Source of the DNA: Bacteroidaceae bacterium | GTDB taxonomy: Bacteria; Bacteroidota; Bacteroidia; Bacteroidales; Bacteroidaceae | DNA: 34,578 bases | Direction of reading: 5' to 3' | NCBI GenBank assembly: GCA_017517605.1 | Contig: JAFWYQ010000104.1 | Location: 1-34,578, forward strand | In this document: one piece after another, positions 1,696-18,611 of the stretch | How positions within the stretch are numbered: position 1 is the first letter of the stretch | Layout: every line of letters starts with the position of its first letter | The notes under the pieces: generated by a model | Seen by the model: the letters and a program-made list of their open reading frames with translations, nothing else | Told to the model about the DNA's origin: nothing | The model's database searches: none | Program-made: the position numbers and the translations under genes

Positions 1696-2588
1696 ATGTC
1701 TATTGTAATCAAAAATCTAAATAAGGTGTATGACAACGGACACCATGCCTTGAAGGACATCAATCTGGAAATCCCTTCGGGTATGTTTATCTGCTTGGCC
1801 CCAATGGCGCAGGCAAAAGTACACTGATGCGCATTTTGGTGGCTTTGATGGAGCCGTCAAGTGGTGAAGTGGAAATGTATGGTTGCAATCTGTTGAAAGA
1901 GCGTCGCGAAGTAAGGCGCTTGTTGGGATACCTGCCACAAGACTTCCGTTTCTTTGCAAAATACAAAGTAATAGAGTATCTGGATTATGCCGCCCGCCTC
2001 TCGGGAATGGACGATAATCGCAAGCGCAAGCAAGCCGTTGCCGATATGTTGGAGCAAGTGGGTCTGTATGAAGTGCGTGAACGGTATGCGTCCAAATTGT
2101 CAGGAGGTATGAAACGTCGTTTGGGTATTGCACAAGCCTTGATTCATTCACCGAAAGTGATTATCGTGGATGAACCTACAACAGGACTTGACCCCGAAGA
2201 GCGTATCCGTTTCCGCAATTTGTTGACACAAGTGAGCGGAAACGACATTACTATCATCCTGTCAACCCACATCGTAGGCGATATCAGCAGTTCGTGCGTG
2301 AACATGGCTCTATTGAATAAAGGCGAAGTCTCTTTCCGTGGTTCACCTGAAGAGATGTTGCAAAGAGCCGAAGGAAAAGTGTGGCGACTGACCGTAAGCA
2401 ATGACGATTACAAATTGATAAGCCGGGAATATCCTGTTATTTCTACCATCCCCCGTGGAAGAAAATGGGAAATCCAAGTGGTGGCCGATGAACTGAAAGG
2501 ATTCGAAGCCGAATCCTTCCCACCCAATTTGGAGCATGCCTATGTATACTTCATGGAAAATAAATTGGATTTGTGGTTGAATGATTGA
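1696..2588 (+). CDS. ABC transporter ATP-binding protein, frame disrupted before Walker A
   Basis: The N terminus begins at ATG 1696 (MSIVIKNLNKVYD, then the HHALKDINLEIPSGMF strand). After TTT at 1786-1788 only two bases (1789-1790) precede CTGCTTGGC, so the frame changes and the original frame soon stops. Restoring one base gives a normal NBD: GPNGAGKST Walker A, YLPQDF Q-loop, LSGGMKRR signature, IIVDEPTTGLD Walker B, STHIV H-loop, and a short C-terminal domain. The intact downstream frame alone (ATG 1827) lacks Walker A and would be non-functional. The gene overlaps or abuts the large permease at 2612, its likely partner. It is closely similar to the NBD at the end of the RND fusion (11932-16626). 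The lost base could be a sequence error or true inactivation. Confidence 0.82.
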
Positions 2589-2611
2589 AAATTATAAGAG
2601 GAGAGAGAAAA

Positions 2612-4687
2612 ATGACCTTTCTGAATAACATATTATCAGTAGCAAGATACGAATCGAAACTGCTTAAGCGCAGTTGGTTCTTCAAAGTATTCAGCGTATT
2701 GTCCGTTTTGCTCATAGCGGGTGCATCGGTCTCAATAATGCAATTTCAAAAGTTTGCATTCAGTTGTATCCCCTCATTGGCGGCATATAACCTATTGCTT
2801 TACTTCAATGTAGCTCAAGCCATTGTTTCAATATTCTTGGCATCAGAATACTTGAAACGCGACAAGCAATTGGACACATCTGAAGTGTTTTATGTCCGTC
2901 CGTTGAGCAATGCCGAGTATCTGTTAGGTAAAATGTGGGGTACCATACGGGTGTTCATCCTGCTCAACTTTTTGGTAATACTTGTAGCACTTACGGTGTG
3001 CTACATCTATATACCCGAACATGTGTCTCCCCTTAGCTTCATCATGTACTTCTTCATCTTGAATGTTCCTACGCTGATATATATTATCGGCCTCAGCACG
3101 TTGATGATGTTGCTCGTGAAGAATCAGGCACTGACATTTGTTATCCTGTTGGGATACATCGGACTTACACTCTTTTATGTAGGCGATAAATGCTACTATT
3201 TGTTTGACTACATCGGCTTCAACATCCCCATGTTGGAGTCTACCATTACGGGTTTTGCCGATCTTTCTTCTCTGATTGTCCACAGAGTACTCTATCTGTT
3301 ATTGGGAATAGGATTCATCCTGTGCAGCATATCGCTTTTCCGCCGATTGCCTAATTCGCCACGTGCCCTTTATCCATGGCGCGCAGCCTCTGTGGTGTTT
3401 TTGTTGGCAGCACTCGTATGCGCTGGTTATCACGTAGGTAAATATGTGGAAAAAGAAAACTTCCAGCAAGAAATGATTGCCTTGAATAACCGTTATGCAA
3501 GCGATCCGAAAATGGAAGTGGATTCTTGCATGATAGAAGTGGTACAAAATCGGGAAATACTGAATTTTAAGGCACATCTTGTGGCAACTCCCGTAAAGTC
3601 CGCTTCAGTATTCACTTTTACACTGAATCCTGGCTTTCAGGTAAAATCGGTAAGTTCCGACGACTTTACCTTGAATTACAAAAGGGAAAAACACCTTTTG
3701 TGGATTGAATTTCCCAAAGAGATAGCAGGGGATGACACCGTACGCTTCACTCTTGAATACGAGGGTGTGGCAGACGAGAGAATCTGTTACCTCGACATTC
3801 CTGAAGAATTGCTGATTGAACAGGAAAAATTCATGGGCACATTCAATGTAGGGAAACGCTATCTGTATCAGACAGAAAAGTATACATTGCTGACACCTGA
3901 ATCCTATTGGTATCCACGTCCGGGAGTATGTTATAGCGACGAAAATCCCGATTGGCAACAGAGCTATTTCACCCGTTTCCAAATGAACGTAAAACCCAAT
4001 GCCGGATTAACTGTCATTTCTCAAGGTGAAAGGTGTATGAGTGATGATTCACTGACCGTTTCATTCAATCCTGAATATCCGTTGCAATCATTGTCACTGA
4101 TAATTGGAGATTATAAAAATGTCTCTATCGATGTGGATAGCACACATTATGCAGCGTGGTATCTGGACGGACACGATTTCTTTACTCAAGAACTAACACT
4201 TCTCGAAGATACAATTCCTTCTATTATCCGTGATGTAAGATTTGATTACGAAGAAAGGGTAGAAATGGAATATCCTTTCAATCGTTTCTCTATTGTAGAA
4301 ACTCCCGCACACCTTGCCAGTTACACACGTGCATGGACAGGAGCACAAGAAAAAATGCAACCTGAAATGGTGTTGGTGCCCGAACGGATGTATAACGATT
4401 GGAGACTCGATGTGAAAGGAACGAAAGAACGCCTGAAAGCCGACCGTGAACGAGGAGGACGTGGAGGCGGACGCGGACGTCGTGGAGGACAATCTATGAC
4501 TGACCTGGAAATCGAAATGCAGATTTTCCGAGACATCCTTTACTTCATGTGGGCCACCAATGCCAGCTTCAGTTGGCAGACAGGCCAGATGGGACGTACT
4601 TCTGTGACCGAAAGGAAAGCCCCTATTACATCTTCCCACAAATGTATAACTTCAGATACAATATCTATTCTACCGAATGGCCGGTAG
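2612..4687 (+). CDS. ABC-2-like permease fused to M1-aminopeptidase-like ectodomain (N-terminal part, frameshifted)
   Basis: The chosen start is ATG 2612 (MTFLNNILSVARYESKLLKR). An in-frame TTG at 2585 overlaps the previous stop and adds only charged residues. About seven membrane segments lie at roughly residues 22-43, 60-80, 113-134, 142-168, 172-190, 226-244 and 259-275, as in ABC-2 permeases. A long extracytoplasmic region from about residue 280 follows and resembles the M1 aminopeptidase N-terminal beta domain and core (ESYWYPRP, then ETPAHLASYTRAW with PEMVLVPER). No HExxH zinc motif and no GAMEN motif is seen, so proteolysis is unlikely. An Arg/Gly-rich linker is encoded at about 4441-4490. 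The frame leaves family-like sequence around 4575-4620 and stops at 4687. The rest is in the next entry. Confidence 0.75.
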   Translation: MTFLNNILSVARYESKLLKRSWFFKVFSVLSVLLIAGASVSIMQFQKFAFSCIPSLAAYNLLLYFNVAQAIVSIFLASEYLKRDKQLDTSEVFYVRPLSNAEYLLGKMWGTIRVFILLNFLVILVALTVCYIYIPEHVSPLSFIMYFFILNVPTLIYIIGLSTLMMLLVKNQALTFVILLGYIGLTLFYVGDKCYYLFDYIGFNIPMLESTITGFADLSSLIVHRVLYLLLGIGFILCSISLFRRLPNSPRALYPWRAASVVFLLAALVCAGYHVGKYVEKENFQQEMIALNNRYASDPKMEVDSCMIEVVQNREILNFKAHLVATPVKSASVFTFTLNPGFQVKSVSSDDFTLNYKREKHLLWIEFPKEIAGDDTVRFTLEYEGVADERICYLDIPEELLIEQEKFMGTFNVGKRYLYQTEKYTLLTPESYWYPRPGVCYSDENPDWQQSYFTRFQMNVKPNAGLTVISQGERCMSDDSLTVSFNPEYPLQSLSLIIGDYKNVSIDVDSTHYAAWYLDGHDFFTQELTLLEDTIPSIIRDVRFDYEERVEMEYPFNRFSIVETPAHLASYTRAWTGAQEKMQPEMVLVPERMYNDWRLDVKGTKERLKADRERGGRGGGRGRRGGQSMTDLEIEMQIFRDILYFMWATNASFSWQTGQMGRTSVTERKAPITSSHKCITSDTISILPNGR

Positions 4688-5988
4688 CTAACCGAATGAT
4701 AGAGTTGTTGTTGCAAGGAAATACACAAACCAATAACTGGATGCGTAATGTCAACGGACTCAGCAACGATGAAAAATCTCTGATGCTGATGCAAAAATAC
4801 TCCTTTAAAGAAGTACAAAACTTGACAGAGCATCGCGATTTATTGAACAATTTAATAAAATTGCAAGGTAAAAAGCTGTTCCTTAATGCAGAAAGGAATA
4901 TGGGTGTACAAGCCTTCAAAGACACATTGTTTGCTCATATCAAGGCTAATGCCTTCCAAAACTTATCATTTGAATCCTTATTGGATACATTGGAAATAAT
5001 CAGTGACACCCAATTAAGAAGTCAAATTGAAGAATGGAATCAGCCGACAGAGTTGACTGAATTCATGATAGGAACCCCAAGCGTAACCAAGATTGAAACC
5101 GAAACAATGGAAATCTATCAGGCAGAAATCATTATTGCCAATCTTTCTGACCAACCTGGAAGCATCAATATGAGAATGCAATTCTGGTCGCAAGGTGGTG
5201 GTAATGATGATTATCAGATATTCAATGGAGAGGAAAAACCTGTAGAATGGATTATCGATTTCAAACCTCATGAAACAAAACGTATTGTAACACATTGGGA
5301 GGAAAATCCAGGAACGTTCATCATCAATACCCTTTTCTCAAAGAATCTGCCGGTACAAGTATCTGTTCGTAACCAACGTGTGGAAGAAGTATACGTGTTA
5401 ACGGAAGAGGGTGAATATACATTATCTGAAAACTTCATGAATGATAAAGAAGAAGTGATTGTAGATAACGAAGATGCACATCTCTTTACATTATCTACAC
5501 CTCCCCCTTCTGGATATTTGGGTAAATGGATTAATCAGAATACAGAAGAAGAAGAGTTCAAATACGTAGGAATGAATGAATGGCAAGCACCTGCAAGATG
5601 GACATTGACCACCGATCAGAATTATTACGGACGTTCTATTCGATCAGCTGTACATATTCGCTCAGGAAAGGGTTCTCAATACGCTCAATGGAAAATCCCC
5701 GTACCAAGTGCCGGACGATATGAATTGTATTACCATGTACGTCGACCTGAACAATTAAGACGTGAAAACAGATGGGGACGAAAGAAATATTTGTATCATT
5801 TCGTCATCAATTCAGAAATTGACGATTACGAAGAAAAAGCAGAATTGGACATGCGTAGGACGGATGAGGGTTGGAACTTAATTGGCACCTATGGATTGAT
5901 AGGAGATACGCTAATCGTCCGTCTGACAGATGAAAGCGAATTGAATATGATTGCTGCTGATGCAGTAAAAATCGTGAGAAAAAATTAA
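4549..5988 (+). CDS. C-terminal part of the permease/M1-like protein, with golvesin-like end domain
   Basis: This frame continues the protein started at 2612. Family-like sequence resumes at about GTYFCDRKESPYYIFPQ, and the ATG at 4549 is not a natural start. It covers the helical M1-like part (EWPVANRMIELLLQ through the LESLLDTLE-type repeats) and an Ig-like segment. The last ~150 residues, with SGKGSQYAQWKIPVP, YELYYHVRRP and ending in LIVRLTDESE...IAADAVKIV, resemble golvesin C-terminal-like (carbohydrate-binding-type) domains. Joined to the upstream piece, the protein would be about 1,120 residues. No metal-binding HExxH appears in this half either. Its stop overlaps the ATG at 5988 by one base. 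Calling the ectodomain a sensor or chaperone would be speculation. Confidence 0.72.
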   Translation: MGHQCQLQLADRPDGTYFCDRKESPYYIFPQMYNFRYNIYSTEWPVANRMIELLLQGNTQTNNWMRNVNGLSNDEKSLMLMQKYSFKEVQNLTEHRDLLNNLIKLQGKKLFLNAERNMGVQAFKDTLFAHIKANAFQNLSFESLLDTLEIISDTQLRSQIEEWNQPTELTEFMIGTPSVTKIETETMEIYQAEIIIANLSDQPGSINMRMQFWSQGGGNDDYQIFNGEEKPVEWIIDFKPHETKRIVTHWEENPGTFIINTLFSKNLPVQVSVRNQRVEEVYVLTEEGEYTLSENFMNDKEEVIVDNEDAHLFTLSTPPPSGYLGKWINQNTEEEEFKYVGMNEWQAPARWTLTTDQNYYGRSIRSAVHIRSGKGSQYAQWKIPVPSAGRYELYYHVRRPEQLRRENRWGRKKYLYHFVINSEIDDYEEKAELDMRRTDEGWNLIGTYGLIGDTLIVRLTDESELNMIAADAVKIVRKN

Positions 5989-6023
5989 TGTTTGGCAAAT
6001 TAACAATAAAATATAGAGTATAT

Positions 6024-7535
6024 ATGCTAAGACCAATCAAAAAAGTGACATGTGCAGTGGCCTTCCTTTGTGGTTGCGCAGGAATCAATGCACAATCAAA
6101 CGAACCGTCAGTGAGTATGACGCTGACATTAGAACAGGCATTGGAATATAGCGTGGATCATAGCCCCGAATTGCAAGAGGCATTGATCAATCTAGAACGC
6201 TATAAATTAAGTTTGGAAGCCCAACGAGCATCGTTGAAATCGAAGTTTGCGCTGACGCTGAATCCTTTTACTTATAGCAACAGCCGTTCTTTTGATAACC
6301 GATTCTCGCAATGGTACACCAACGAGTCATTTTCATCTAACGGAACATTCAGTATCACCCAGCCAATTATTTGGACGGATGCAACCGTTTCTTTGAATAA
6401 CAAATTCGGATGGCAAAGCAATACCAGTATTAGTGGTGACACTTCAAATGATAACAAGGCCTTCAGTAACGACCTTTATTTGAGTATCAATCAACCATTG
6501 TTTACATATAATCGTGCAAAAACGGATTTGAAAACAATCGAATATGATTACGAAAATGCACTTATCAATTATGCTTTACGTCGGTTAAGTCTCGAAAGCA
6601 CCATCACTTCCTCTTTTTACAATGTTTATACTGCTAAAAATAACTTAAGTATCAGTGAGGCAGAATTGAAGGATGCACAACAGAACTTTGAGATTATCAA
6701 GAACAAAGTAGAAGCTGACCTTTCTGCTCGAGACGAACTTTATCAAGCAGAATTGAACTTGGCTACAGCTGCTTCTAATGTGGATAATCGTAAAGTGTCG
6801 TTGGAAAATGCAAAAGATGACTTGAAACAAATTCTTGGTATAGATATTGACCAGGATGTGGATGTATCGACCGAAATCAGTGCACAACCGGTAAAAATTG
6901 ATATGCTTACTGCTATCAATAGTGCTTTAGGTTCACGTCTTGAGCTGAGACAACGTGAAATTTCACGTACAGAATTGGATATCCAAATGAAACAGATTAA
7001 AGAAATGAATAGTTTGGATGGAAATATATCTTTGTCACTTGGTGTTATGGGCGATAATGAAGATTTACAAAAAGTTTATGATCACCCGACGAATAATCCA
7101 AGAATATCAATCTCATTGAGTGTACCTATCTTTGATTGGGGAGAGAGACGTGCACGTATCAAGGCACAGGAGCTGGCAACCAAAATATTTGATTTGCAGA
7201 CCGATGAGGAACGAAAGAATATTGAGCTTGCGGTACGACGCAGTTGTCGTAGCTTGAAGAATTTGGAGGCACAGATTACTATCGCTGAACAAAGCGTGAA
7301 AAATGCACAGCTGACTTACGACTTGAATGCCGAAAGATATCGGAACGGAGAATTGACCGGTATGGAGATGAATCAATTCCAGACACAGCTTTCCAATCAA
7401 AAAATGTCGTATGTGTCAACCATAATCAATTATAAATTGGAATTGCTCAATCTGAAGATTATATCTTTGTATGATTTTGAAAACAATGTTCAAATCGTAC
7501 CAATGAGTGTAATTCCCGATGAAGAGACAAAATAA
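6024..7535 (+). CDS. TolC-family outer membrane efflux protein
   Basis: The start at ATG 6024 gives a clean signal peptide (MLRPIKKVTCAVAFLCGCAG, cleavage near INAQS). The upstream ATG at 5988 overlaps the previous stop and would bury this signal. The mature protein starts with the TolC-family repeat MTLTLEQALEYSVDHSPEL and has long Gln/Asn/Glu-rich coiled-coil helices arranged in two similar halves (ALINYALRRLSLES; ERYRNGELTGMEMNQFQTQL). Length 503 residues is normal for the family. It would form the outer-membrane channel of a tripartite exporter with the adaptor and RND pumps encoded immediately downstream. Confidence 0.92.
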   Translation: MLRPIKKVTCAVAFLCGCAGINAQSNEPSVSMTLTLEQALEYSVDHSPELQEALINLERYKLSLEAQRASLKSKFALTLNPFTYSNSRSFDNRFSQWYTNESFSSNGTFSITQPIIWTDATVSLNNKFGWQSNTSISGDTSNDNKAFSNDLYLSINQPLFTYNRAKTDLKTIEYDYENALINYALRRLSLESTITSSFYNVYTAKNNLSISEAELKDAQQNFEIIKNKVEADLSARDELYQAELNLATAASNVDNRKVSLENAKDDLKQILGIDIDQDVDVSTEISAQPVKIDMLTAINSALGSRLELRQREISRTELDIQMKQIKEMNSLDGNISLSLGVMGDNEDLQKVYDHPTNNPRISISLSVPIFDWGERRARIKAQELATKIFDLQTDEERKNIELAVRRSCRSLKNLEAQITIAEQSVKNAQLTYDLNAERYRNGELTGMEMNQFQTQLSNQKMSYVSTIINYKLELLNLKIISLYDFENNVQIVPMSVIPDEETK

Positions 7536-7571: not shown

Positions 7572-8630
7572 ATGAAACAGAATAATAATATCCTCGCAAT
7601 AGTCTTCGCTTCTACATTGATGGCAGCATGTGGAAATGAACAAGCTGGTAGTACAGTAGAAATAGCATCACCCGTGTCAGTAACCGAAGTGGAACTGAGC
7701 CATATCAAAAAGTATAATAGTACCAGTGGTACTGCTATGGCCAATGCCGAAGTAGAGTTGACATCTGAAATGGCAGGTGAATACAATTTGATGATAAATC
7801 CGCGTACTAATAAACCTTATAAGTTAGGTGACAAGGTGTTGGCAGGAGAAACCATCGTGAAATTGACCAATCAATCGTATGAAAACGATATTGCCATTGA
7901 ATCTAAAAAGTTATCATTGGAAATAGCCGAGCAAGATGAAGTAAAAAAACGTGCTCTCTATGAAAAAGGTGGCGTTACACAAAGTGAGGTACGCAATGCA
8001 GAAGTAACAATCACCAATGCCAAATATAGTTATGAAAATGCTCAAATCAGCTTGAGCAAAATGAGTATCAAGGCTCCCTTTACAGGTATTATTGTGAACT
8101 TGCCGCACTATACAAGAAATGTCCAGTTGGCATCTGGTTCAAGTATTGTATCCATTATGAGCTACGATAAGATGATTATGGAAATCAATCTTCCCGAAAG
8201 TGCCATTGGTGAGGTTGAGGCAGGTCAGGAGGTTGCCATCACACACTACACTTTGCCTAAGGATACTATTTCAGGTGTCATCAGCGAATTGTCACCGGCT
8301 ATCAGCCCTGAAACACGTACATTCAAGGGAAAATTGCTTATTGACAATAAAGACTTGAAATTACGCCCGGGTATGTTCGTAAAAGCTGACATCGTGGTCG
8401 ATGAGGCTGAGAATACTATTGTTATTCCTAAGGAAATTGTTATGAACAACCGTGGTCGGAAGTCTGTGTTTATTGTTGATCGTGGTGTAGCACGTTCAAG
8501 AAATATTCGCACAGGATTGGAAGATCAAGATAATATTGAAGTTTTGGAGGGCTTGGATTTACAGGATATGCTGGTTACAAGAGGTTATGAAACCCTTCGT
8601 GATGGAAGCAAAGTGAAGATTCAAAAATAA
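7572..8630 (+). CDS. RND efflux periplasmic adaptor (MFP/HlyD family), lipoprotein
   Basis: A lipoprotein signal (ASTLMAAC, lipidated Cys20) anchors the protein, probably to the inner membrane facing the periplasm. Next come a beta-barrel/lipoyl half (ANAEVELTSEMAGEY), a short alpha-hairpin (residues ~110-150, AEQDEVKKRALYEKGGV), the second lipoyl half (MSIKAPFTGIIVNLP) and a beta-barrel domain ending with LRPGMFVKADIVV. This is the standard order for RND adaptors, and 352 residues is normal. It lies 36 bp after the TolC gene and is followed by two RND genes, so one adaptor probably serves both pumps. Confidence 0.92.
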   Translation: MKQNNNILAIVFASTLMAACGNEQAGSTVEIASPVSVTEVELSHIKKYNSTSGTAMANAEVELTSEMAGEYNLMINPRTNKPYKLGDKVLAGETIVKLTNQSYENDIAIESKKLSLEIAEQDEVKKRALYEKGGVTQSEVRNAEVTITNAKYSYENAQISLSKMSIKAPFTGIIVNLPHYTRNVQLASGSSIVSIMSYDKMIMEINLPESAIGEVEAGQEVAITHYTLPKDTISGVISELSPAISPETRTFKGKLLIDNKDLKLRPGMFVKADIVVDEAENTIVIPKEIVMNNRGRKSVFIVDRGVARSRNIRTGLEDQDNIEVLEGLDLQDMLVTRGYETLRDGSKVKIQK

Positions 8631-8735
8631 ATCTGATACAAATTATAGATTAAAAATACTGCGTCATCAAGAATAGTGGAGTTGTGGCAGTATTTGAAAT
8701 TTGTACATTGTAAACGGTAATTCGTGATTATATTT
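8631..8735 (+). repeat. Nested intercistronic stem-loop upstream of first RND gene
   Basis: Outer arms TACAAATT (8637-8644) and AATTTGTA (8698-8705) enclose inner arms AAATACTGC (8654-8662) and GCAGTATTT (8687-8695); both pairs are perfect. The structure fills the adaptor-RND gap. No T-run follows, so RNA processing, stabilisation or attenuation is more likely than full termination. That function is inference. Confidence 0.55.
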
Positions 8736-11700
8736 ATGAAAAAACTAGTAAGATTGGCAGTCAATAATCCAGTTACTATTCTCATGATGGTGCTGGCAAT
8801 TGGATTGTTAGGAAAAATATCATACGACAAGTTAAGCGTTGACCTGTTGCCCGATTTGAACAACCCCAAGTTGTTCGTAGAAATCAATGCTGGTGAAAGA
8901 CCGCCTGAAGAAATTGAAAAACAATTTGTGGAAAGAATGGAGGCAATGGCCATTCGTCAGCAAGATGTAGTAGGAGTGTCCTCAATCATCAGAGCCGGTA
9001 GTGCCCAGATGACTGTCGAGTATTCGTGGAATAAAGACATGGACGAAGCATTCTTGGATTTGCAGAAAGCTATGAATGGTTTTGTTCAGGATGATGCTAT
9101 TAGTGAACTGCAAATCACCCAAAACGATCCAAATACCGACCCCATTATGTTGGTTGGTATGAGTCATACATCCATTACGAATATGGCTGAGTTACGTAAA
9201 GTGGCAGACTCGTATGTTCGTAATGAATTGGTGCGTATTGAGGGTGTTGCTGATGTTGTGTTGTCTGGAGATGAAGTAAGCAATCTTGTCATCAGAACCA
9301 ATCCATACAAATTGGATGCGTATGGTTTGAGTGTCAATACACTTTCTTCTAAAATTCAAGAAGAAAACCAGCGAATTAGTGGAGGTCATGTTACTGAGAT
9401 GGGTACCCAATACATCGTTAGTGGTGTAAATATGCTTAATTCGGAAGAGGATTTTGGGAATATTATCGTAGGATATAAAGAAACCGAAACAGGAACTGTC
9501 ACTGTTAGTTCTGAATTTGCGGCTATCAGTAAGGCCCCCATTTATATGAAGGATGTGGCAGAAATCTATTTTGAGAACGAAGAACCAGAAAACATTGTAC
9601 GTATCAATGGCCGTCGTTGTATAGGTCTGGCTATCTATAAAGAAATGCGTTTCAACACCGTACATGCTGTTTCTGGTGTATCTGAACGTTTGGAAGTTAT
9701 AAAGAAAGCTCTTCCTGGCTATCAATTTGATATAGTAAGCAACCAAGGTACCTTTATTAATGATTCTATTGGTGAAGTTAAAGATAGTGCTGTGCTTGGT
9801 GTACTGCTTGCTGTGATAGTCATCTACCTGTTCTTGCGTCGGGCCAAAGTTACATTAATTATATCGTTGGCAATTCCTATTTCAATTATTGCCACATTCA
9901 ACTTGATGTTCTTTGGAGGACTTACTTTGAACATTATGACATTAGGAGGATTGGCTTTGGGAGCGGGTATGCTTGTCGATAATGCCATTGTTGTAATTGA
10001 AAGTATCTTCCGTAATCAAGAAAATGGCCTGTCACTAAAGGATTCTGTCATACAAGGAACCAGCGAAGTAGGTAGTGCAATTATTGCCTCCACATTAACC
10101 ACTATTGTTGTATTCTTGCCCATTGTATATTTGCAAGGTGCTTCTGGTGAATTGTTCAAGGATCAGGCATGGACCGTTACATTTGCATTACTTTCTTCTC
10201 TTTTTGTGGCTATTCTGGTTATCCCTACATTGTACGAACGTCTGTTCCGTAAAAATGAAACCGATAAGAATAGTTCTGGAATCAGAGTGTTTGAAGATTC
10301 CGCTTCGTCAGGGAAATTAGTTACAAAGTATTCTGTATTTCTTGAAAAAGTCCTTGAAAAACGTTGGACTGTGGTTATTGTATCAATATTGTTGGTTGTT
10401 GGATCTTATATGCTGTTACCTTTTATTGGAGCAGAATTTATGCCTAAGACTGAAGGAAACTCATTCAGTATCAGTGTAAAGATGAACGAGGGTACTCGTC
10501 TCGAACGTACCTCAGCGACTGTAGCCGGTATTGAAAACCTGATTTTTGACATTACTCAAGATTCTTTATGTACAATATATAGTCATATAGGCCCTGGAGG
10601 TAGTACTGGAAGTAGTGTTTTAGATGGTGAAAATACAGCCAACATGAAGGTAATTCTCTCATCCGAGTCTCGCATTTCTCCTGAAGCCTTGATTGAACAA
10701 TTGTATGTCAATACCCAAAACATTGAAGGATTGGAGCTTTCATTCTTGCAAGATGATAACACGTTGGGTTCTTTGATGGGAACAGAAGGAGCACCTGTTG
10801 TAATAGAGATCAAGGGCGAAGAATTGGATGAAATCACTCGTATCGCAGGCGACGTGAAGGAGCGTGTAGAAAACATTAAAGGATTGTTCAACGTAGCCAA
10901 TGCTATCGAAGACGGTGCACCTGAAATGATTTTGACGGTAAATCGTGCCATTGCCAGCATGAATAATCTGAACGTCAGCACTATTGTTTCGCAAATCCAA
11001 GAACAGCTTGCGGGTGTCAATGCCGGACAAATGGATTACAAGGGAGAGATGAGGAACATTGTAATTAAAGTGCCTGAAATCACATTGGAACAATTGGATG
11101 ATATGATTATCACCAGTGGCGAACAGAATTTCCGCTTGTCTGAGTTGGTAAACATCCGTCCCGATGTTGCTCCTAAAGAAATCTTCCGTCGCAATCAAAG
11201 CCGTATAGCTAAAGTCACTGCTAATTTGGAAGAAGGATATTCATTGAGCGAAATGGCAATTGTTATCCGTGAGGCCTTGAAAGACTATGATTTACCGGTC
11301 AACTATTCAATCAATGTTACCGGTGAGGAAGAAATGCGTCAAGAGTCTATGGGAGGCTTGGTATTGGCATTGGTCCTTTCTGTCATATTGGTATATATGG
11401 TAATGGCTTCACAATTTGAGTCATTGTTGCATCCGTTCACCATTCTATTGACCATTCCTTTGGCTTTGATTGGTTCCATTTGGTTGTTCTTTATCACAGG
11501 CACTACCATCAACATCATGGGTGTTATTGGTATCATCATGCTCAGTGGTATAGCTGTAAACAACTCAATCATTCTGGTAGACCGTATCAACCAAATCAAA
11601 GAGGGTTATGACAAACTCACAGATGCTATCATTGCTGCAGCAAGTCAACGTATTCGCCCCATTTTGATGACAAGTTTAACTACAATCTTGTCATTGCTTC

Positions 11701-11855
11701 CGATGGCTATTGCTTTTGGTGAAGGGGCCTCTTTGCGTGCACCTATGGCCATTGCCGTTATCGGTGGTCTTGCCACTTCTACGCTACTCAGCTTGATAGT
11801 TATTCCTTGTGTTTACTACCTGTTGGAACAGATGAAAAGAAATATAGTGAAATAA
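8736..11855 (+). CDS. RND-family efflux permease (HAE1/AcrB-like)
   Basis: The start is ATG 8736 (MKKLVRLAVNNPVTILMM); the GTG at 8724 adds only four residues. The 1,039-residue protein has the RND plan: TM1, a large periplasmic porter/docking loop (DLLPDLNNPK... to QGTFINDSI), TM2-6, a second loop, and TM7-12. TM4 carries GAGMLVDN, where Asp415 matches the first Asp of AcrB's Asp-Asp proton relay and Asn416 replaces the second. The TM10 region reads GIAVNNSIILVD, with no Lys at the AcrB K940 position. The protein would use the proton gradient to move substrates from the inner membrane or periplasm to TolC. The next gene encodes a second, divergent RND, so a mixed trimer as in MdtBC is possible. 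Confidence 0.93.
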   Translation: MKKLVRLAVNNPVTILMMVLAIGLLGKISYDKLSVDLLPDLNNPKLFVEINAGERPPEEIEKQFVERMEAMAIRQQDVVGVSSIIRAGSAQMTVEYSWNKDMDEAFLDLQKAMNGFVQDDAISELQITQNDPNTDPIMLVGMSHTSITNMAELRKVADSYVRNELVRIEGVADVVLSGDEVSNLVIRTNPYKLDAYGLSVNTLSSKIQEENQRISGGHVTEMGTQYIVSGVNMLNSEEDFGNIIVGYKETETGTVTVSSEFAAISKAPIYMKDVAEIYFENEEPENIVRINGRRCIGLAIYKEMRFNTVHAVSGVSERLEVIKKALPGYQFDIVSNQGTFINDSIGEVKDSAVLGVLLAVIVIYLFLRRAKVTLIISLAIPISIIATFNLMFFGGLTLNIMTLGGLALGAGMLVDNAIVVIESIFRNQENGLSLKDSVIQGTSEVGSAIIASTLTTIVVFLPIVYLQGASGELFKDQAWTVTFALLSSLFVAILVIPTLYERLFRKNETDKNSSGIRVFEDSASSGKLVTKYSVFLEKVLEKRWTVVIVSILLVVGSYMLLPFIGAEFMPKTEGNSFSISVKMNEGTRLERTSATVAGIENLIFDITQDSLCTIYSHIGPGGSTGSSVLDGENTANMKVILSSESRISPEALIEQLYVNTQNIEGLELSFLQDDNTLGSLMGTEGAPVVIEIKGEELDEITRIAGDVKERVENIKGLFNVANAIEDGAPEMILTVNRAIASMNNLNVSTIVSQIQEQLAGVNAGQMDYKGEMRNIVIKVPEITLEQLDDMIITSGEQNFRLSELVNIRPDVAPKEIFRRNQSRIAKVTANLEEGYSLSEMAIVIREALKDYDLPVNYSINVTGEEEMRQESMGGLVLALVLSVILVYMVMASQFESLLHPFTILLTIPLALIGSIWLFFITGTTINIMGVIGIIMLSGIAVNNSIILVDRINQIKEGYDKLTDAIIAAASQRIRPILMTSLTTILSLLPMAIAFGEGASLRAPMAIAVIGGLATSTLLSLIVIPCVYYLLEQMKRNIVK

Positions 11856-11931: not shown

Positions 11932-14900
11932 ATGAAATTCATCATAACGAGAAAGATTACAATCTGCATGTTGTTTATAGCCGTGTCCATGCTTGGACTT
12001 GTGTCTTATAAACAATTATATGTAGAAATGCTTCCTAATGCAGAGCTACCGATGTTGTACATCCAGGTATCTTCCCGCCAAGATGTAAATCCCGCCTATA
12101 TGGAGTCCCAAGTCATTATTCCATTGGAGGGAGTGGTAAGTACCATCGAAGGTGTTGAACGTATCGAATCTGAGGCAGGAAACCGAAACGGCCGTTTACG
12201 TGTTGACTTCAATAAGGGTATGAATCTGAAATATACCATCTTGAAGTTACAGGAAAGGGTTAATAATCTGATACCTTCTTTACCCGAAGGATTTACCGTA
12301 ACGGTAGAGAAAGCAAATGTTACGGGTGTAAACAACAACTTCATGACCCTTCAGGTTCGGGGAACTGGTGGAGTGGACCGTCTACGCAATTTGGTTGACA
12401 AAGAGATAAAGCCTAAGTTGGAAAATATTGACGGTGTTGCAGCTGTAAACGTATATGGTGGACGTGAAAAGGCCATCGAAATACGAGTGAATGAAGCTGC
12501 TCTTACTGCGCTCAACATTACTCCATCGCGTATCAGCCAGATGCTTTCACAATACAATCAGGAGCGTACATTCCTGGGCTATGTCAACGAACCGGACTTG
12601 CGTTATTATGTCCATTTGGATGCCAACTACGACCATATTGCTGAGATAGAGAATGTGATTGTAGCTCCTGGCCCTGTCTATTTGAAGGATATTGCTACTA
12701 TCTTTTTTGACTTGAAGGAGGAAACTACTTTGAGCCGCGTCAATGGTATGGAAGCCATTTCTGTAACTTTGGTAAACGATGCCCAGACCAATTTGTTGGA
12801 ACTTTCCAATCGAACCAAGTTACGCATCGAGCAACTGAATCAAGAATTCATGCCCCATGAGATTGAGATGGTTATCCAATCCAACTCTGCCGACGAAATT
12901 GAAAACAACATCAACCAAGTAGTTGAATTGGGTATAAGTGGAGGATTATTGGCTATTGTCATTTTGTGGTTCTTCTTGCACAATATCCGATTGGTTATAT
13001 TCATAGCCCTTTCAATCCCTATTTCTATATTGGCGGCATTCAACTTGTTTTATGCCTCTGGTATAACTATCAACAGCCTCACCCTTATTGGTTTGGCATT
13101 GGCTGTAGGTATGTTGTTGGACAACAGTATTGTGGTGCTAGAGAATATTTATCGTCTAAGTTCTTTAGGTAAAACTCCCGAAGAGGCTGTTATTCAAGGT
13201 ACGCGTGAGGTTTGGAAATCCATTTTTGCCGCCACCTTGACAACTATCACTGTATTTTTGCCATTCCTTTTCTCCGACGAAGTTTACGTCAAACTCATTG
13301 GTGAACATATTGGTGTATCCATCATATCTACGTTGTTGTTCTCGTTGACGGTAGCTCTGTTGTTTATCCCCATGACTACCTATCTGATGCTTAAAAAAGG
13401 AAAAGGTAAAAGCGTTTTCCACGAGAAGTTCTCCATCAACGAGCGTCCCATACAGATTTATGCCGTACTGTTGAAGACCTGTCTGCGTAATCCTGCAGTA
13501 GCCATTGTCGGATGTGTGGTTGTACTTGTAGGTACATTGATGATTGCTCTTTCCCAAAATCCCGATGCAGGACGCACCGTGAATAGCGATCGTGTGACCA
13601 TGACTATCACCATGCCTCCCAGCAGCACGTTGGATTACTCAGAGAAGATTGTCACTTTGCTTGAATCCAAACTCGACAGTTTCCCCGAAAAGGAGGATGT
13701 CATCAGTCGCATAGCTGAAGAAGAGGCTTCTATCACAGTTACATTGAAGGAAGGGTATTACGAAGATGGCGGACGAAGCATTTCGGAAATCATTTCCGAT
13801 TTGAATCGTCGTATGCGTCTGCCTAATATCTACACCCGTATTACGGCTGGTGCTTCAGCTCAGACTCAAAGTGGAGCCGCATCTGCCATGTCGAACTTTA
13901 TGGATGTGTTGGGCGTGGGTGACAATAGCGAGCGTATCATTATCAAGGGTTCTGACTTCGATATGATGGACGTCATTGCTGATGATATCCGATACTATTT
14001 GGGTGAAATGGATTTCATTGGTTCTACATGGGCAACTAATCCTGGCCGACGTCGTGAAATTCACCTTACTTTCGACCCCGTTGTATTGGCTTCTTACGAC
14101 ATTTCCCGTCAGAATATCACCTCAGCTCTTGGTTCACTCGGACGCGAACTCAGTACAGGTACCAATCTCAAGTTAGGTACCGAAGAATTTGAGATTGTCA
14201 TCAAAGAAGACCTTACCAAAGAGCAGGAAGAGAAATTGCAGAATATGCCGAAGACCGTGGATGATTTGCGTCGTATTATGGTAGAAGATGCCAATGGCGG
14301 ATTGCACGAACTCTCTTCACTGGCATCCATCAAATACACGCGCGATATATCCCGTATCAACCGTGTAAACCGCGACCGCGAGATTACCATCACTTATAAT
14401 ATCGACCAAAGTGAGAACCTTCCCAAAGATGTACTCGAAGGTTATCGCGAAGAGATTGACCAACTGATAGCGGGTTACAATCTTCCCAGTGGTATTGCCA
14501 TTCAGGTAGACCGTAGTGACGAATCAATGAGCGAATTCAAGTTCCTCATTATCGCTTCGCTTATTCTTATCTACATGATATTGGCATCTGTATTCCAGTC
14601 GGTCAGCACTCCGTTTGTGTTGCTCTTCACCATTCCGTTGGCAGCCATTGGTTCATTGTTGGGATTGCTCATTACTGGTAATCCTCTTCAGAATGCCAAC
14701 ACCCTCACCGGATTCCTTATCCTATTGGGTGTGGTAGTCAACAATGGTATCATCCTTATCGACTATGCCAACATTCTTCGTCAGCGCGGATACGGTCGTC
14801 ATCGCGCTCTGATCACCAGTGGATTTTCGCGTTTGCGCCCTATTCTCATCACCACCATCACCACCGTTATAGCCATGCTTCCCATGGCCATGGGTGATAC

Positions 14901-16626
14901 CGACTATGCTGGTGCTATCGGAGCTCCGTTTGCCGTCACAGTCATTGGTGGTCTTTCATTCTCGGCGGTGCTCACTTTGGTGATGATACCTACCGTTTAC
15001 CTCTCGTTGGAGAACATCCTGCGTTGGTATCGTTCGCTCAGTCGTCCGATGCATCTGTTGCATGCCGTTATTTTTGCATTGGGCCTGTTCTACATCTATA
15101 CCAAGGTCGACGGAGTATTCATTCAGTTGCTTTATCTGATAGTACTTGTATGCCTTATCCCTGGATGCACCTATTTCATCATGTCGTCCATCCGTTTGGC
15201 CAACATCCGTGTTATCAAGAATGACGAACCCATCAACATTGAGGTGCGCAATCTGGTGAAGATTTACGACCGTGCACCACTTTTCGAGCGTCAATGGATG
15301 AGTGGCTTGAAGATTCGTCGTCGTTTGGGACTCGACCGTAAGTTCTACCAATTGGGCGATTTCCTTCCCATCTTGTGGCAGGTGGCAGTATTTGCCTTCT
15401 TTGGTTATATGGCAGCGTACTATCTCGACAGCATGTTCTGGATTCTTGTCATGACCTTCTCTGTCAGTGCAGGCGTTTACCACATCTGGGGCATGGTGCG
15501 TAGCTATATCGGTTATCGCATCCCTGCCAGGAAACGGTTGTTGCGCATTATCCACCGTGTTGTATATTTCACCATTCCTGTGCTCACTTTAGTATTCCTT
15601 TATTACCGTGGAGTAGGCACATCGGGCATTATTGTCATGTCATTCCTGTGGGCATTGGGTATAGCCGTCAATCTGACTTCGGCCTATCTCTATGGCAACA
15701 ACATCAATGTCGAGCGTCTTACCGGCCGTTTTGCCGAACTTCGCCGTACATGGTTCATCTTGGTAAAGAGCATTCCCATTATCGGTCGTCGTCGTACCCC
15801 CTTCAAGGCTTTGCGTGGTGTATCGTTTGAAATTAAAACAGGTATGTTCGGCTTGTTGGGTCCCAACGGAGCTGGTAAGTCTACCATGATGCGTATCATC
15901 ACAGGTATTCTCGACCAGAGCTACGGTACCATCCGCATCAATGGAATGGATACCCTTGAATATCGCGAAGAGTTGCAGAGCCTTATCGGATTCCTGCCTC
16001 AGGAGTTTGGTATGTACGAAGGCATGACAGCATGGGATTTCCTTGATTACCAAGCTATCCTGAAAGGTATTACCGACAATACTGTCCGTCGTGAACGATT
16101 GGAGTATGTGCTCAAGTCCGTACACATGTACGAACGTCGCGACCACAAGATTGGTTCCTTCTCGGGTGGTATGAAGCAGCGTGTAGGTATCGCCCTCATC
16201 CTGCTCCATTTACCCCGTATCCTGGTGGTGGACGAGCCTACAGCAGGTCTCGACCCGCGTGAACGTATCCGTTTCCGAAACCTGTTGGTAGAGCTTAGCC
16301 GCGAGCGTATCGTTATCTTCTCAACCCACATTATCGAGGATATTGCCAGTTCATGTAACCAGGTAGTAGTCATCAACCGAGGTCGTCTGAAGTACTTTGG
16401 CGAGCCTATGGATATGATTCGTATGGCCGACAACAAGGTGTGGACATTCACTGTCAGCATCGCCGAACTCTCTCAGCTCGACAGCCGTCTGGTGGTCAAC
16501 AATATGATGGAGGGCGAACGTGTACGTGTGCGCTACATCTCTGTAGACAAGCCACCGTATGCCGATGCCGAGCGCGTAGAGGCCAACCTCGAAGATGCTT
16601 ACCTCTGCCTGCTTAAGGATATGTAA
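11932..16626 (+). CDS. RND efflux permease fused to a C-terminal ABC ATPase domain
   Basis: One uninterrupted 1,564-codon frame. Residues 1 to ~1035 form a complete RND permease: TM1, periplasmic loops, TM4 with AVGMLLDN (Asp397-Asn398), TM10-12 ending LTLVMIPTVYLSL. Two extra membrane segments follow at ~1040-1058 and ~1064-1084. At 1103-1113 the first strand of an ABC NBD appears (IEVRNLVKIYD), then an insert of about 175 residues with about four membrane segments (~1144-1165, 1168-1189, 1209-1226, 1232-1254). The NBD resumes at TPFKALRGVSFEI with Walker A GPNGAGKST (1310-1318), Q-loop FLPQEF, signature FSGGMKQR (1410-), Walker B ILVVDEP (Asp1434, Glu1435), H-loop His1466 and a C-terminal tail like that of the ATPase at 1696. 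All catalytic NBD motifs are intact. The next gene (16728) is a lone ABC-2 permease, its likely partner. Confidence 0.93.
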   Translation: MKFIITRKITICMLFIAVSMLGLVSYKQLYVEMLPNAELPMLYIQVSSRQDVNPAYMESQVIIPLEGVVSTIEGVERIESEAGNRNGRLRVDFNKGMNLKYTILKLQERVNNLIPSLPEGFTVTVEKANVTGVNNNFMTLQVRGTGGVDRLRNLVDKEIKPKLENIDGVAAVNVYGGREKAIEIRVNEAALTALNITPSRISQMLSQYNQERTFLGYVNEPDLRYYVHLDANYDHIAEIENVIVAPGPVYLKDIATIFFDLKEETTLSRVNGMEAISVTLVNDAQTNLLELSNRTKLRIEQLNQEFMPHEIEMVIQSNSADEIENNINQVVELGISGGLLAIVILWFFLHNIRLVIFIALSIPISILAAFNLFYASGITINSLTLIGLALAVGMLLDNSIVVLENIYRLSSLGKTPEEAVIQGTREVWKSIFAATLTTITVFLPFLFSDEVYVKLIGEHIGVSIISTLLFSLTVALLFIPMTTYLMLKKGKGKSVFHEKFSINERPIQIYAVLLKTCLRNPAVAIVGCVVVLVGTLMIALSQNPDAGRTVNSDRVTMTITMPPSSTLDYSEKIVTLLESKLDSFPEKEDVISRIAEEEASITVTLKEGYYEDGGRSISEIISDLNRRMRLPNIYTRITAGASAQTQSGAASAMSNFMDVLGVGDNSERIIIKGSDFDMMDVIADDIRYYLGEMDFIGSTWATNPGRRREIHLTFDPVVLASYDISRQNITSALGSLGRELSTGTNLKLGTEEFEIVIKEDLTKEQEEKLQNMPKTVDDLRRIMVEDANGGLHELSSLASIKYTRDISRINRVNRDREITITYNIDQSENLPKDVLEGYREEIDQLIAGYNLPSGIAIQVDRSDESMSEFKFLIIASLILIYMILASVFQSVSTPFVLLFTIPLAAIGSLLGLLITGNPLQNANTLTGFLILLGVVVNNGIILIDYANILRQRGYGRHRALITSGFSRLRPILITTITTVIAMLPMAMGDTDYAGAIGAPFAVTVIGGLSFSAVLTLVMIPTVYLSLENILRWYRSLSRPMHLLHAVIFALGLFYIYTKVDGVFIQLLYLIVLVCLIPGCTYFIMSSIRLANIRVIKNDEPINIEVRNLVKIYDRAPLFERQWMSGLKIRRRLGLDRKFYQLGDFLPILWQVAVFAFFGYMAAYYLDSMFWILVMTFSVSAGVYHIWGMVRSYIGYRIPARKRLLRIIHRVVYFTIPVLTLVFLYYRGVGTSGIIVMSFLWALGIAVNLTSAYLYGNNINVERLTGRFAELRRTWFILVKSIPIIGRRRTPFKALRGVSFEIKTGMFGLLGPNGAGKSTMMRIITGILDQSYGTIRINGMDTLEYREELQSLIGFLPQEFGMYEGMTAWDFLDYQAILKGITDNTVRRERLEYVLKSVHMYERRDHKIGSFSGGMKQRVGIALILLHLPRILVVDEPTAGLDPRERIRFRNLLVELSRERIVIFSTHIIEDIASSCNQVVVINRGRLKYFGEPMDMIRMADNKVWTFTVSIAELSQLDSRLVVNNMMEGERVRVRYISVDKPPYADAERVEANLEDAYLCLLKDM

Positions 16627-16727: not shown

Positions 16728-17420
16728 ATGAACCCACTGATTACCACCTCTTCATTCAATCTGAAGATTATATTTGGCGGACGATTCCTTTGGTTTCTTC
16801 TCACCAGTTTCCTGTTGTTTGCCTACTTTGTGTGCAGCAGCATTTGGCGTGGCGAGATACCGACGGACGAGATGATGTATTCCCATCTCTTCTTCCCCGC
16901 ACTGCTGTTGATATTCTATCCGGCTACGTTCGGCATACAGAACGATGCCGACAACCGTATTCTTGAGATACTTTTCGGTATCCCCGGCTACATGTACAAG
17001 GTGTGGCTTTCACGCCTCCTGCTCATCTATGTATTGGTGTTCATCATGCTGATAGTCTATTCTATTGTGGCCTACGTGTTGGTCTATCCCATCAGTCCGT
17101 TGGGCATGGCCTATCGTCTGATGTATCCCGTACTCTTCATGGGTGGATTAGCCTTCTATTTCTCTACCGTCACTCGCAACGGAAATGCCACCGCCTTGCT
17201 CATCATCATTTTAGGTATTGCCATGGTCTTCCTGCGCGATTCGTTCTTCCGCGACACCATGTGGGACATTTCTCTCAATCCCTACCGCATACCCGAGAAC
17301 ATTCACCCCGTCATTTGGGAAAGTACCGTCATGAAGAACCGCCTTTTTCTCGGTATCGGAGCCTTGGTGTTCACCCTGATGGCCCTGCTCAATTTGCAGA
17401 AGCGCGAAAAGTTCATCTAA
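16728..17420 (+). CDS. ABC-2-type membrane permease, last gene of the efflux cluster
   Basis: The 230-residue protein has about six hydrophobic segments (FLWFLLTSFLLFAYFV near residue 20; the HLFFPALLLIFYPATFG segment; LLLIYVLVFIMLIVYSIVAY; YPVLFMGGLAFYFS; ATALLIIILGIAMVFL; FLGIGALVFTLMALLNL) with short loops. An acidic amphipathic stretch (NDADNRILEILFGIPG) after the second segment is typical of ABC-2 permeases coupling to an NBD. It lacks its own ATPase gene downstream; the nearest available NBD is the one at the C terminus of the RND fusion just upstream. I infer these two form an ABC half of the system. A perfect intrinsic terminator follows at 17473-17520. Confidence 0.78.
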   Translation: MNPLITTSSFNLKIIFGGRFLWFLLTSFLLFAYFVCSSIWRGEIPTDEMMYSHLFFPALLLIFYPATFGIQNDADNRILEILFGIPGYMYKVWLSRLLLIYVLVFIMLIVYSIVAYVLVYPISPLGMAYRLMYPVLFMGGLAFYFSTVTRNGNATALLIIILGIAMVFLRDSFFRDTMWDISLNPYRIPENIHPVIWESTVMKNRLFLGIGALVFTLMALLNLQKREKFI

Positions 17421-17558: not shown

Positions 17559-17588
17559 TTGTACATTCATCATTATATCGTATTTTTG
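17559..17588 (+). promoter_or_regulatory. Bacteroidetes-type promoter for the lipoprotein gene
   Basis: TTG at 17559-17561, a 19-nt spacer, then TATTTTTG (TAnnTTTG) at 17581-17588. This predicts a transcription start near 17595, which excludes the upstream ATG at 17559 as a start codon and supports translation from 17643 or 17652. Confidence 0.65.
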
Positions 17589-17651
17589 TCTTCAGATTAT
17601 TATACCCAAAGTATAAACAATGCTCAAATTTCAATAACAATTATGGTAAGT

Positions 17652-18611
17652 ATGAAACATTTGCAGAAATTATTCATCCTGTTCGCAATGGGAATCTCCC
17701 TTTGTTCTATACAGGCATGCAATGACGATGACGACAAGTTGGATGGCAATAACGACAGTCCACTGAATCATGTTGGAGAATTTATTCCTGGAAGTACCCA
17801 AAAACTGCTTTCAGTAGGTGAATATACATACCACTACACTCTCGATGGAAAAATCCAAAGTGTCATGTATGATGGAGGAAAAGAAATTTTTACTTATTCA
17901 CCGAATGAAATTCAAATTAAGAGTGAAGTCGACACTATAGAAAGCGAATTCATTATGTCCGTTACCCTTAATGACAAAGGTTACCTCTCTGAAACAAGTT
18001 ACTCAAGTATAGGTTCCGATGAAAATCATACGTGGAATTATATCGAAAATTCTACACATTATTATGACGCAGAAGGTCATTTACTGAAAATGATAACAAA
18101 TTGGACTCAAGATGGTATCGACAACAATGAACCTTATACTGGTAGTGGAATCGATTCTATAGTTTACATTTGGGAAAATGGTCTTATGAAACAGACCTAT
18201 TATGAATATAAATGGTCTTGGGGAGCAGAAGACATATATGAGAAAATAACAAGCCACTTCAATTACGAAGAAGGTAAAAATAAGAATCAATCAAAGCAAG
18301 ATGTACTCTTCAGCGATTACCTCAGCTATTTGGGATTCTATGGCAAAGGTCCCGATTATTTGCCAACAAGTAGAGTGCGTACTACAATATCTAATGAGGA
18401 TGGCGAGGTTGTCACAGAATCCGATACCTTGCAATACACCTTTGAATTCAACGAAGACGGAACCGTACATCAAAAGAATGACACCTATTTCACGTACGGT
18501 ACCATTCAAGAACAGGGAAATATTGAGAAACCTCAAGCAACAACCCGTTCCGAAATGTACCAAGAGTACAACAAACAATTCATTTTACGCGCAAAGCACC
18601 GTAGAAGATAA
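17652..18611 (+). CDS. Putative cell-surface lipoprotein with YD-like motifs, unknown function
   Basis: I chose ATG 17652 (MKHLQKLFILFAMGISLCSI), giving a short lipoprotein signal with a QAC lipobox. The acidic NDDDDK after the cysteine resembles Bacteroidetes surface-export signals. An in-frame ATG at 17643 is possible. The 319-residue protein is rich in Tyr/Thr/Asp and has loose repeated motifs such as YTYHYTLDGKIQSV, SVTLNDKGYLSETSY and YYDAEGHLLKM, reminiscent of DUF4595/RHS-like YD strands in Bacteroidales lipoproteins. The DUF assignment is from memory and tentative. It has its own promoter after the efflux-cluster terminator, so it is a single-gene unit. No enzymatic motif is seen. Confidence 0.75.
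   Translation: MKHLQKLFILFAMGISLCSIQACNDDDDKLDGNNDSPLNHVGEFIPGSTQKLLSVGEYTYHYTLDGKIQSVMYDGGKEIFTYSPNEIQIKSEVDTIESEFIMSVTLNDKGYLSETSYSSIGSDENHTWNYIENSTHYYDAEGHLLKMITNWTQDGIDNNEPYTGSGIDSIVYIWENGLMKQTYYEYKWSWGAEDIYEKITSHFNYEEGKNKNQSKQDVLFSDYLSYLGFYGKGPDYLPTSRVRTTISNEDGEVVTESDTLQYTFEFNEDGTVHQKNDTYFTYGTIQEQGNIEKPQATTRSEMYQEYNKQFILRAKHRRR

Follow-up and report, generated by a model that had tools for sequence, protein, structure and literature searches.

The 34,578-nucleotide contig JAFWYQ010000104.1 (GenBank assembly GCA_017517605.1) of a Bacteroidaceae bacterium, hereafter the window, encodes a protein in which a permease of the resistance-nodulation-division (RND) type and the nucleotide-binding domain (NBD) of an ATP-binding cassette (ABC) transporter belong to one covalent chain (Table 1). 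As the earlier note on this DNA had stated, the gene is a single clean open reading frame of 1,564 codons, with an ATG start and no internal stop, and both Pfam domains lie in that frame: ACR_tran at residues 2 to 1026 (full-length, profile positions 3 to 1020 of 1021) and ABC_tran at residues 1294 to 1438 (E = 2.7e-26). The gene is part of an operon with the order separate NBD, large permease, TolC-family channel, periplasmic adaptor, unfused RND permease (RND1), fusion, and a small protein with six transmembrane (TM) helices.

The motifs named in that note are found where it had placed them, namely MLLDN in TM4 (within GMLLDNS, with D397), Walker A at residues 1310 to 1318 with K1316, the signature SGGMKQ at residues 1411 to 1416, Walker B at residues 1430 to 1436 with E1435, and the H-loop with H1466. 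The last four key elements (K1316, SGGMKQ, E1435, and H1466) are kept in 51/51 aligned relatives, the window counted. With its A-loop, Walker A, Q-loop, signature, Walker B Glu, and H-loop all present and the key residues invariant in those 51 sequences, the fused NBD is a predicted ATPase with the full set of hydrolysis motifs. The count of 12 TM helices holds for the RND part, which displays 12 hydropathy peaks, but not for the whole chain, where the scan detects about 18.

Table 1. Coordinates of the fusion gene, its parts, and the other genes of the operon in the window
Feature	Position	Strand	Remarks
RND permease-TM insert-ABC NBD fusion	11932..16626	+	1,564 aa, stop codon counted
RND (ACR_tran) part, residues 1-1030	11932..15021	+	PF00873, E 1.3e-159; 12 TM peaks (hydropathy)
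TM4 aspartate D397	13120..13122	+	D in 72/72 aligned fused RNDs
Two additional TM helices after RND part, residues 1041-1079	15052..15168	+	Hydropathy
Predicted detached NBD strand 1 and A-loop, INIEVRNLVKIY, residues 1101-1112	15232..15267	+	
Predicted membrane insert within NBD, residues 1113-1285	15268..15786	+	About 4 TM helices (hydropathy)
Remaining NBD, residues 1286-1564	15787..16623	+	PF00005; motif columns
Second NBD of the operon	1734..2588	+	PF00005, E 7.9e-19; gene start out of frame; ATG-based frame 1827-2588
Large permease, N-terminal ABC-2 transmembrane domain and next domain	2585..4687	+	Frame broken in window
Large permease, C-terminal part with Golvesin_C	4504..5988	+	PF25275, E 1.4e-11; separate frame
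TolC-family outer membrane channel	5988..7535	+	PF02321, E 1.7e-42
RND-type periplasmic adaptor	7572..8630	+	TIGR01730 RND_mfp, 183.1 bits (cut-off of 94.9 exceeded)
Second RND permease, RND1, unfused	8724..11855	+	PF00873, E 1.1e-210
Small 6-TM protein, 230 aa, probable second ABC-2-like permease	16728..17420	+	Conserved beside fusion

Both halves of the protein score below the curated levels of the NCBIfam models they resemble. The best partial matches of the fused NBD are GldA- and DrrA-like (TIGR03522, 184.7 versus 402.6 bits, and TIGR01188, 174.7 versus 312.45 bits), the fusion reaches only 460.9 of the 1250 bits set for RND_permease_2 (NF033617), and no model spanning RND and NBD is present among the best 25 of 198 matches. 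On the RND side, the best match among solved structures is MdtB (9lyq_B). Among the best 60 of 471 Protein Data Bank (PDB) matches, the fused NBD finds the human-type proteins ABCA4, ABCA1, and ABCA7, which are lipid exporters; this likeness hints at a hydrophobic substrate but is not proof of one.

Architecture of the fused nucleotide-binding domain

In the usual description of the ABC fold, the NBD is soluble and uninterrupted, and the earlier note had taken the fused NBD to be a complete domain at the C-terminal end. It is complete in its catalytic motifs, but it does not appear to form one contiguous block, as a segment resembling strand 1 and the A-loop precedes a group of membrane helices. 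The hydropathy scan reveals four TM helices between residues 1144 and 1246, and INIEVRNLVKIY sits between this group and the two helices that follow the RND part. Its residues V1109, K1110, and Y1112 are invariant in 51/51 aligned fusions. The corresponding segment of the operon's other NBD (e.g., SIVIKNLNKVY) ends 20 residues ahead of LLGPNGAGK in each of the 8 rows that allowed a measurement, whereas in the fusion family the distance from the A-loop segment to Walker A ranges from 128 to 244 residues, with a median of 195. The latter figures come from 87 fusion proteins: a one-genome-per-species scan yielded 547 confirmed relatives, the best 80 of which were taken as loci, and 79 of these (locus L088, which has no single frame, was left out) were combined with the window protein and 7 further variants.

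When the fusions were scanned with strand-1 segments of the other NBD, the stretch of INIEVRNLVKIY ranked best in 87/87 proteins, scoring 31.5 in the window protein versus 18.4 for the runner-up. When the entire inserted region was compared by hhalign with the family of the other NBD, exactly the 17 columns of this stretch were aligned, although the match is weak (E = 0.0075, probability of 5%) owing to the shortness of the stretch. Because of the top rank in every fusion, the columns picked out by hhalign, and the three invariant residues, we conclude that the fused NBD is most probably split, with strand 1 and the A-loop followed by a membrane insert and then by the remainder of the domain. 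Strand 1 would be lost from any NBD translated from an internal start; this speaks against production of the NBD as a protein of its own.

The two helix peaks after the RND part are found in 86/87 fusion proteins. Within the insert, 70 of the 87 proteins give four peaks, 11 give three, 2 give two, 3 give one, and a single protein gives five, numbers that rest on a crude hydropathy threshold. An even number of helices would leave both pieces of the NBD in the cytoplasm. Two loci (L170:4337-8944 and L171:4035-8579) have a shorter insert, with 128 residues from the A-loop Tyr to Walker A; by eye it holds about two helices, and the scan counts one and two, respectively. The insert has no match in Pfam and none among PDB chains up to an E value of 1. 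Profile comparisons do not support its kinship with the small 6-TM protein (E = 0.13) or with an ABC-2 transmembrane domain (TMD) of the stand-alone transporters described below (E = 0.1).

Conservation of the fusion

Since the window does hold frame breaks, in the genes for the large permease and the separate NBD, the fusion might have been a product of two adjoining genes merged by a sequencing or assembly error. The earlier note had argued that frame errors could not explain it, and the comparative data agree. The RND, middle, and NBD parts share one frame in 79/80 loci (the best 80 of 547), and in 71 of the 80 the fusion exceeds 1,500 aa; a contig end truncates the RND part in several of them, and the RND part of L054 has a break of its own. 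The sole exception, L088, has the parts in different frames; it comes from a contig of a metagenome-assembled genome (MAG) with a coverage of 6.5, in which the downstream gene is broken too. By name, all of the best 80 loci are from Bacteroidota, and the carriers include gut, oral, and marine members, such as Bacteroides faecis, B. faecichinchillae, Parabacteroides goldsteinii, Tannerella forsythia, and members of Maribellus, Draconibacterium, Prolixibacter, and Labilibaculum. The genomes of B. faecis, P. goldsteinii, and T. forsythia are among those from isolates. Thus, the domain order that the note had proposed to look for across the phylum occurs in many genomes.

The junction itself (residues 1031 to 1100) was compared with two relatives from the same genus. 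Differences at the first, second, and third codon positions number 8, 4, and 28 for L039 (Nei-Gojobori [NG86] dN of 0.075 and dS of 1.13) and 7, 3, and 32 for L040, with dN/dS of about 0.07 in each case. As the differences fall mostly at third positions, this pattern indicates that the junction is under purifying selection. The presence of the same fusion in independent genomes, isolates among them, together with the selection on the junction, refutes the notion of an artefact, whose chance we put at practically nil. The fusion is genuine and long-fixed, and no accident of assembly.

A full-length match to the NBD half is found in 9/61 related genomes, with one fragment in addition (5/15 in the same genus, the window counted); in 52/393 genomes of an order sample; and in 6/395 genomes of a phylum sample. 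The RND half has matches in 53/393 genomes of the order sample at an E value of 1e-110. Of these 53, 44 have frames of 1,515 to 1,640 aa, and the other 9 have frames shorter than 1,500 aa that are cut at a contig end or adjoin one; in two of the latter (G047 and G705), RND and NBD are still together. In G514, also one of the nine, the RND frame runs out into unrelated sequence shortly ahead of the end of the contig, and the NBD half lies on another contig. The earlier note had named homologues that always encode the two parts as separate genes as the observation that would tell against the fusion; no intact case of separately encoded parts came to light, and no intact fused-type RND without the NBD was found in the 393 order genomes at this threshold.

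In a tree of 76 NBDs, 19 fused NBDs form one clade (support of 100/99) and 19 operon-partner NBDs form a separate clade (95/95). The tree gives no firm placing of these two clades relative to the stand-alone cousins described below, and it neither supports nor excludes that the fused NBD arose as a duplicate of its operon partner; the alternative grouping has support of 91/74. In another genome (L174:1598-5893), a related NBD (40% identical) is found at the C-terminal end of an open frame of 1,432 aa; this region has many long frames on both strands, so this may or may not be a fusion.

Operon partners and their relatives

Besides the interrupted NBD, the earlier note had overlooked the second NBD, the large ABC-2 permease, the probable second ABC-2-like permease, and the rest of the operon partners. 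The full seven-gene order is present in 9 other genomes (L039 to L043, L046, and L175 to L177), and other loci are split over contigs. In 10/10 further genomes, the separate NBD lies 13.8 to 14.5 kb from the fused NBD on the same strand, and the small 6-TM gene follows the fusion wherever the contig reaches, with the exception of L096. The large-permease and separate-NBD genes that are broken in the window are whole in the relatives that were read; the large permease forms one frame of 1,122 to 1,141 aa in the five nearest of them. The two NBDs of the operon are 39% identical, and the two RND permeases are about 28% identical.

The large permease consists of one TMD, a middle region, and Golvesin_C. 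Its N-terminal part matches ABC2_membrane_2 in 9/9 homologues (best E value of 8.2e-09), and in profile comparisons its TMD matches both TMDs of a family of stand-alone Bacteroidota transporters (E values of 4e-10 and 2e-11). In these cousins (L191 to L203 and L049), one NBD gene of 298 to 331 aa lies beside a permease that, in 12/13 loci, is a single chain of 1,089 to 1,235 aa with 12 to 14 hydropathy peaks and an HEXXH motif (L201 is broken). Pfam recognizes Peptidase_M1 and ABC-2 domains in the L049 permease, the one that was scanned. The NBDs (about 40% identical) and TMDs of the two systems are homologous; however, the cousins have two TMDs and HEXXH in one chain, whereas the operon permease has a single TMD, ends in Golvesin_C, and is without the M1-type HEXXH. 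Its middle region is read as M1-like, with Pfam support in L177 only (E = 0.0036). The M1-type HEXXH is absent in 11/12 operon homologues read, and the single match, HETKH in L043, is without the HEIAHQWW context seen in L049. Given the one TMD and the lost HEXXH, the operon permease may be a dead peptidase turned into a binding domain. A search of the PDB with the L046 homologue produced no match up to an E value of 0.1.

In the family of the small 6-TM protein, ABC2_membrane_3 is detected in 3/43 members (best E value of 6.2e-08) and Acyl_transf_3 in 7/43 (best E value of 4.5e-06). Its profile marginally matches one TMD of the cousins (E = 0.0028, probability of 11%; the other TMD gives 0.058), and in the PDB it has no match up to an E value of 5.

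Just upstream of the operon, the window encodes an ABC ATPase (positions 1 to 606) and a UPF0014 membrane protein (610 to 1458; PF03649, E = 7e-68), a pair that resembles the iron exporter FetA/FetB. The same pair adjoins the operon in L039 and L040 and was not seen in L041 to L043. The operon is followed by a gene (17559 to 18611) for a 350-aa protein with a lipoprotein-like start, as judged by eye, and no Pfam match up to an E value of 5.

Possible modes of action

Two NBDs, a large permease with one TMD, and the small 6-TM protein would together make one asymmetric ABC exporter. We tentatively favor, with a probability of roughly 0.45, the view that the fusion is a subunit of a combined exporter, in which an asymmetric ABC-2 exporter is covalently docked on an RND-adaptor-TolC pump. 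The stoichiometry, coupling, and substrate that we infer would be as follows. The fused NBD would pair with the separate NBD, and this pair would drive a type V-like ABC-2 exporter whose membrane subunits are the large permease and the small 6-TM protein. Its hydrophobic substrate would be picked up on the cytoplasmic side or in the inner leaflet and raised to the periplasmic face. There, the proton-energized RND1/RND2 pump, RND2 being the fused permease, would receive the substrate and expel it by way of the adaptor and TolC. Both machines would be held together by the covalent link and by the helices that run through the NBD, and these could also transmit NBD movement to the RND membrane domain.

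The proton drive assumed for the RND pair is plausible, judging from the residues that are kept. We take the relay set of AcrB to be D407, D408, K940, R971, and T978, and D397 of the fusion to be the equivalent of D407. The equivalents of D407, R971, and T978 (D397, R967, and T974) are found in 72/72 fused RNDs; the position of D408 is occupied by N (62) or S (10) and that of K940 by N (72/72). The unfused RND1 has D420, N421, and N947 in 66/66 sequences, with the TM4 Asp and the TM11 Arg kept in 66 and the TM11 Thr in 64 of the 66. The absence of D408 and K940 equivalents from both RNDs would suit a scheme in which fused NBDs of different RND protomers or pumps pair up and drive the RND themselves, replacing the proton gradient or adding to it. 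However, the fused RNDs retain three relay residues (Asp, Arg, and Thr), the same D-N/N pattern in the unfused RND1 means that the fusion is not its cause, and a trimer gives no even pairing; we regard direct powering by ATP as very improbable.

The earlier note had put forward two roles, ATP gating of the pump and the holding of two pumps at one TolC. ATP could indeed serve for gating only, with the fused NBD acting as a regulatory clamp on the conformation or assembly of the RND trimer and the large permease working separately with its own NBD. Covalent attachment and six TM helices beside the RND membrane domain would offer a direct mechanical path, the conserved TM4 Asp means that the pump may run on protons alone, and the separate NBD could self-pair, as the single NBD gene must in the stand-alone cousins. 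On the other hand, the full hydrolysis set of the fused NBD is kept in 51/51 sequences, and a pure clamp would have no need for the small membrane protein that follows the fusion wherever the contig extends far enough, L096 excepted. The operon context (a second NBD, an ABC-2 permease and a probable second one, RND1, adaptor, and TolC) favors the combined exporter over a gating NBD, which we consider distinctly unlikely.

Several observations weigh against a combined exporter. Both NBDs are canonical in their motifs, and the sequence gives no sign of mixed as opposed to same-kind pairs; the NBD tree, with its alternative grouping at 91/74, does not firmly show the fused NBD and its operon partner to be each other's closest relatives. 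The small 6-TM protein appears only weakly ABC-2-like, with no profile similarity to the TMD of the large permease (E = 0.67). The loss of D408 and K940 equivalents from both RNDs makes proton drive uncertain. Finally, a Dysgonamonadaceae MAG (L096:1-14734) has the fusion without its usual neighbors, except for a Golvesin_C fragment; TolC, adaptor, RND1, and the 6-TM gene were not detected near the fusion there.

Another possibility is that the fusion is a mere tether, which fixes the ratio and position of two independent exporters at one adaptor-TolC without mechanical coupling. Fusions commonly fix stoichiometry, and one operon supplies all the parts of both machines, but a tether leaves unexplained the helices found between the A-loop and Walker A in 87/87 proteins; we consider it unlikely. 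The combined exporter can also be taken further, as a covalent ABC-RND hybrid of a new transporter class that would be energized by both ATP and the proton gradient. The ATP-driven closing of the NBD would then act on the RND membrane domain via the four inserted helices, so that the use of ATP and of protons would be mechanically coupled, and the hybrid would move its substrate from the cytoplasm to the outside in two linked steps. This stronger version strikes us as rather doubtful.

Known systems share only some of these features. With AcrAB-TolC and the MdtB/MdtC type, the operon has in common ACR_tran permeases, an adaptor, and TolC, as well as two different RNDs side by side; here, however, the second RND is extended by six further TM helices and by an ABC NBD, and D408 and K940 equivalents are missing. 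In MacB, an NBD is fused to a 4-TM permease, and MacAB-TolC likewise joins an ABC transporter with an adaptor and TolC. The fusion differs from MacB in that its NBD is C-terminal to the RND and TM-interrupted, not N-terminal. According to one report, the RND transporter MmpL7 takes part in the export of phthiocerol dimycocerosate (PDIM), which fails when the type V ABC transporter DrrABC is missing; there, too, one hydrophobic product needs both an RND and an ABC-2/type V exporter (PMC11539658). DrrABC and MmpL7 are separate proteins, whereas here a single polypeptide is found. PDIM export is the closest functional parallel found for a combined exporter. To our knowledge, the DrrABC-MmpL7 system has no adaptor-TolC. 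Within the same phylum, passages of another paper describe iron-regulated operons of Prevotella intermedia and Porphyromonas gingivalis, which bring together ABC and RND-superfamily genes in the order TetR, two ABC ATP-binding proteins, MMPL (RND), and outer membrane lipoprotein-sorting protein (PMC10434189). These differ in having separate genes and the MMPL type, and the passages name no TolC or adaptor (PMC10434189).

Full-text literature searches for an RND-ABC fusion found no description of one, and 8 passages of a tripartite-pump review (PMC8277102) mention no such protein. As the genomes are public, an automatic annotation of the gene surely exists.

An NBD with its first strand set apart by membrane helices would not conform to the ABC fold as it is usually described. 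Two separate energy sources are what RND pumps and ABC exporters stand for in textbooks, and in many Bacteroidota these two pump types, which normally work apart, are locked together in one protein. Its conservation in culturable gut commensals allows the coupling of both energy sources to be asked about directly, and it also opens the question of how a hydrophobic product would pass from one exporter to the other.
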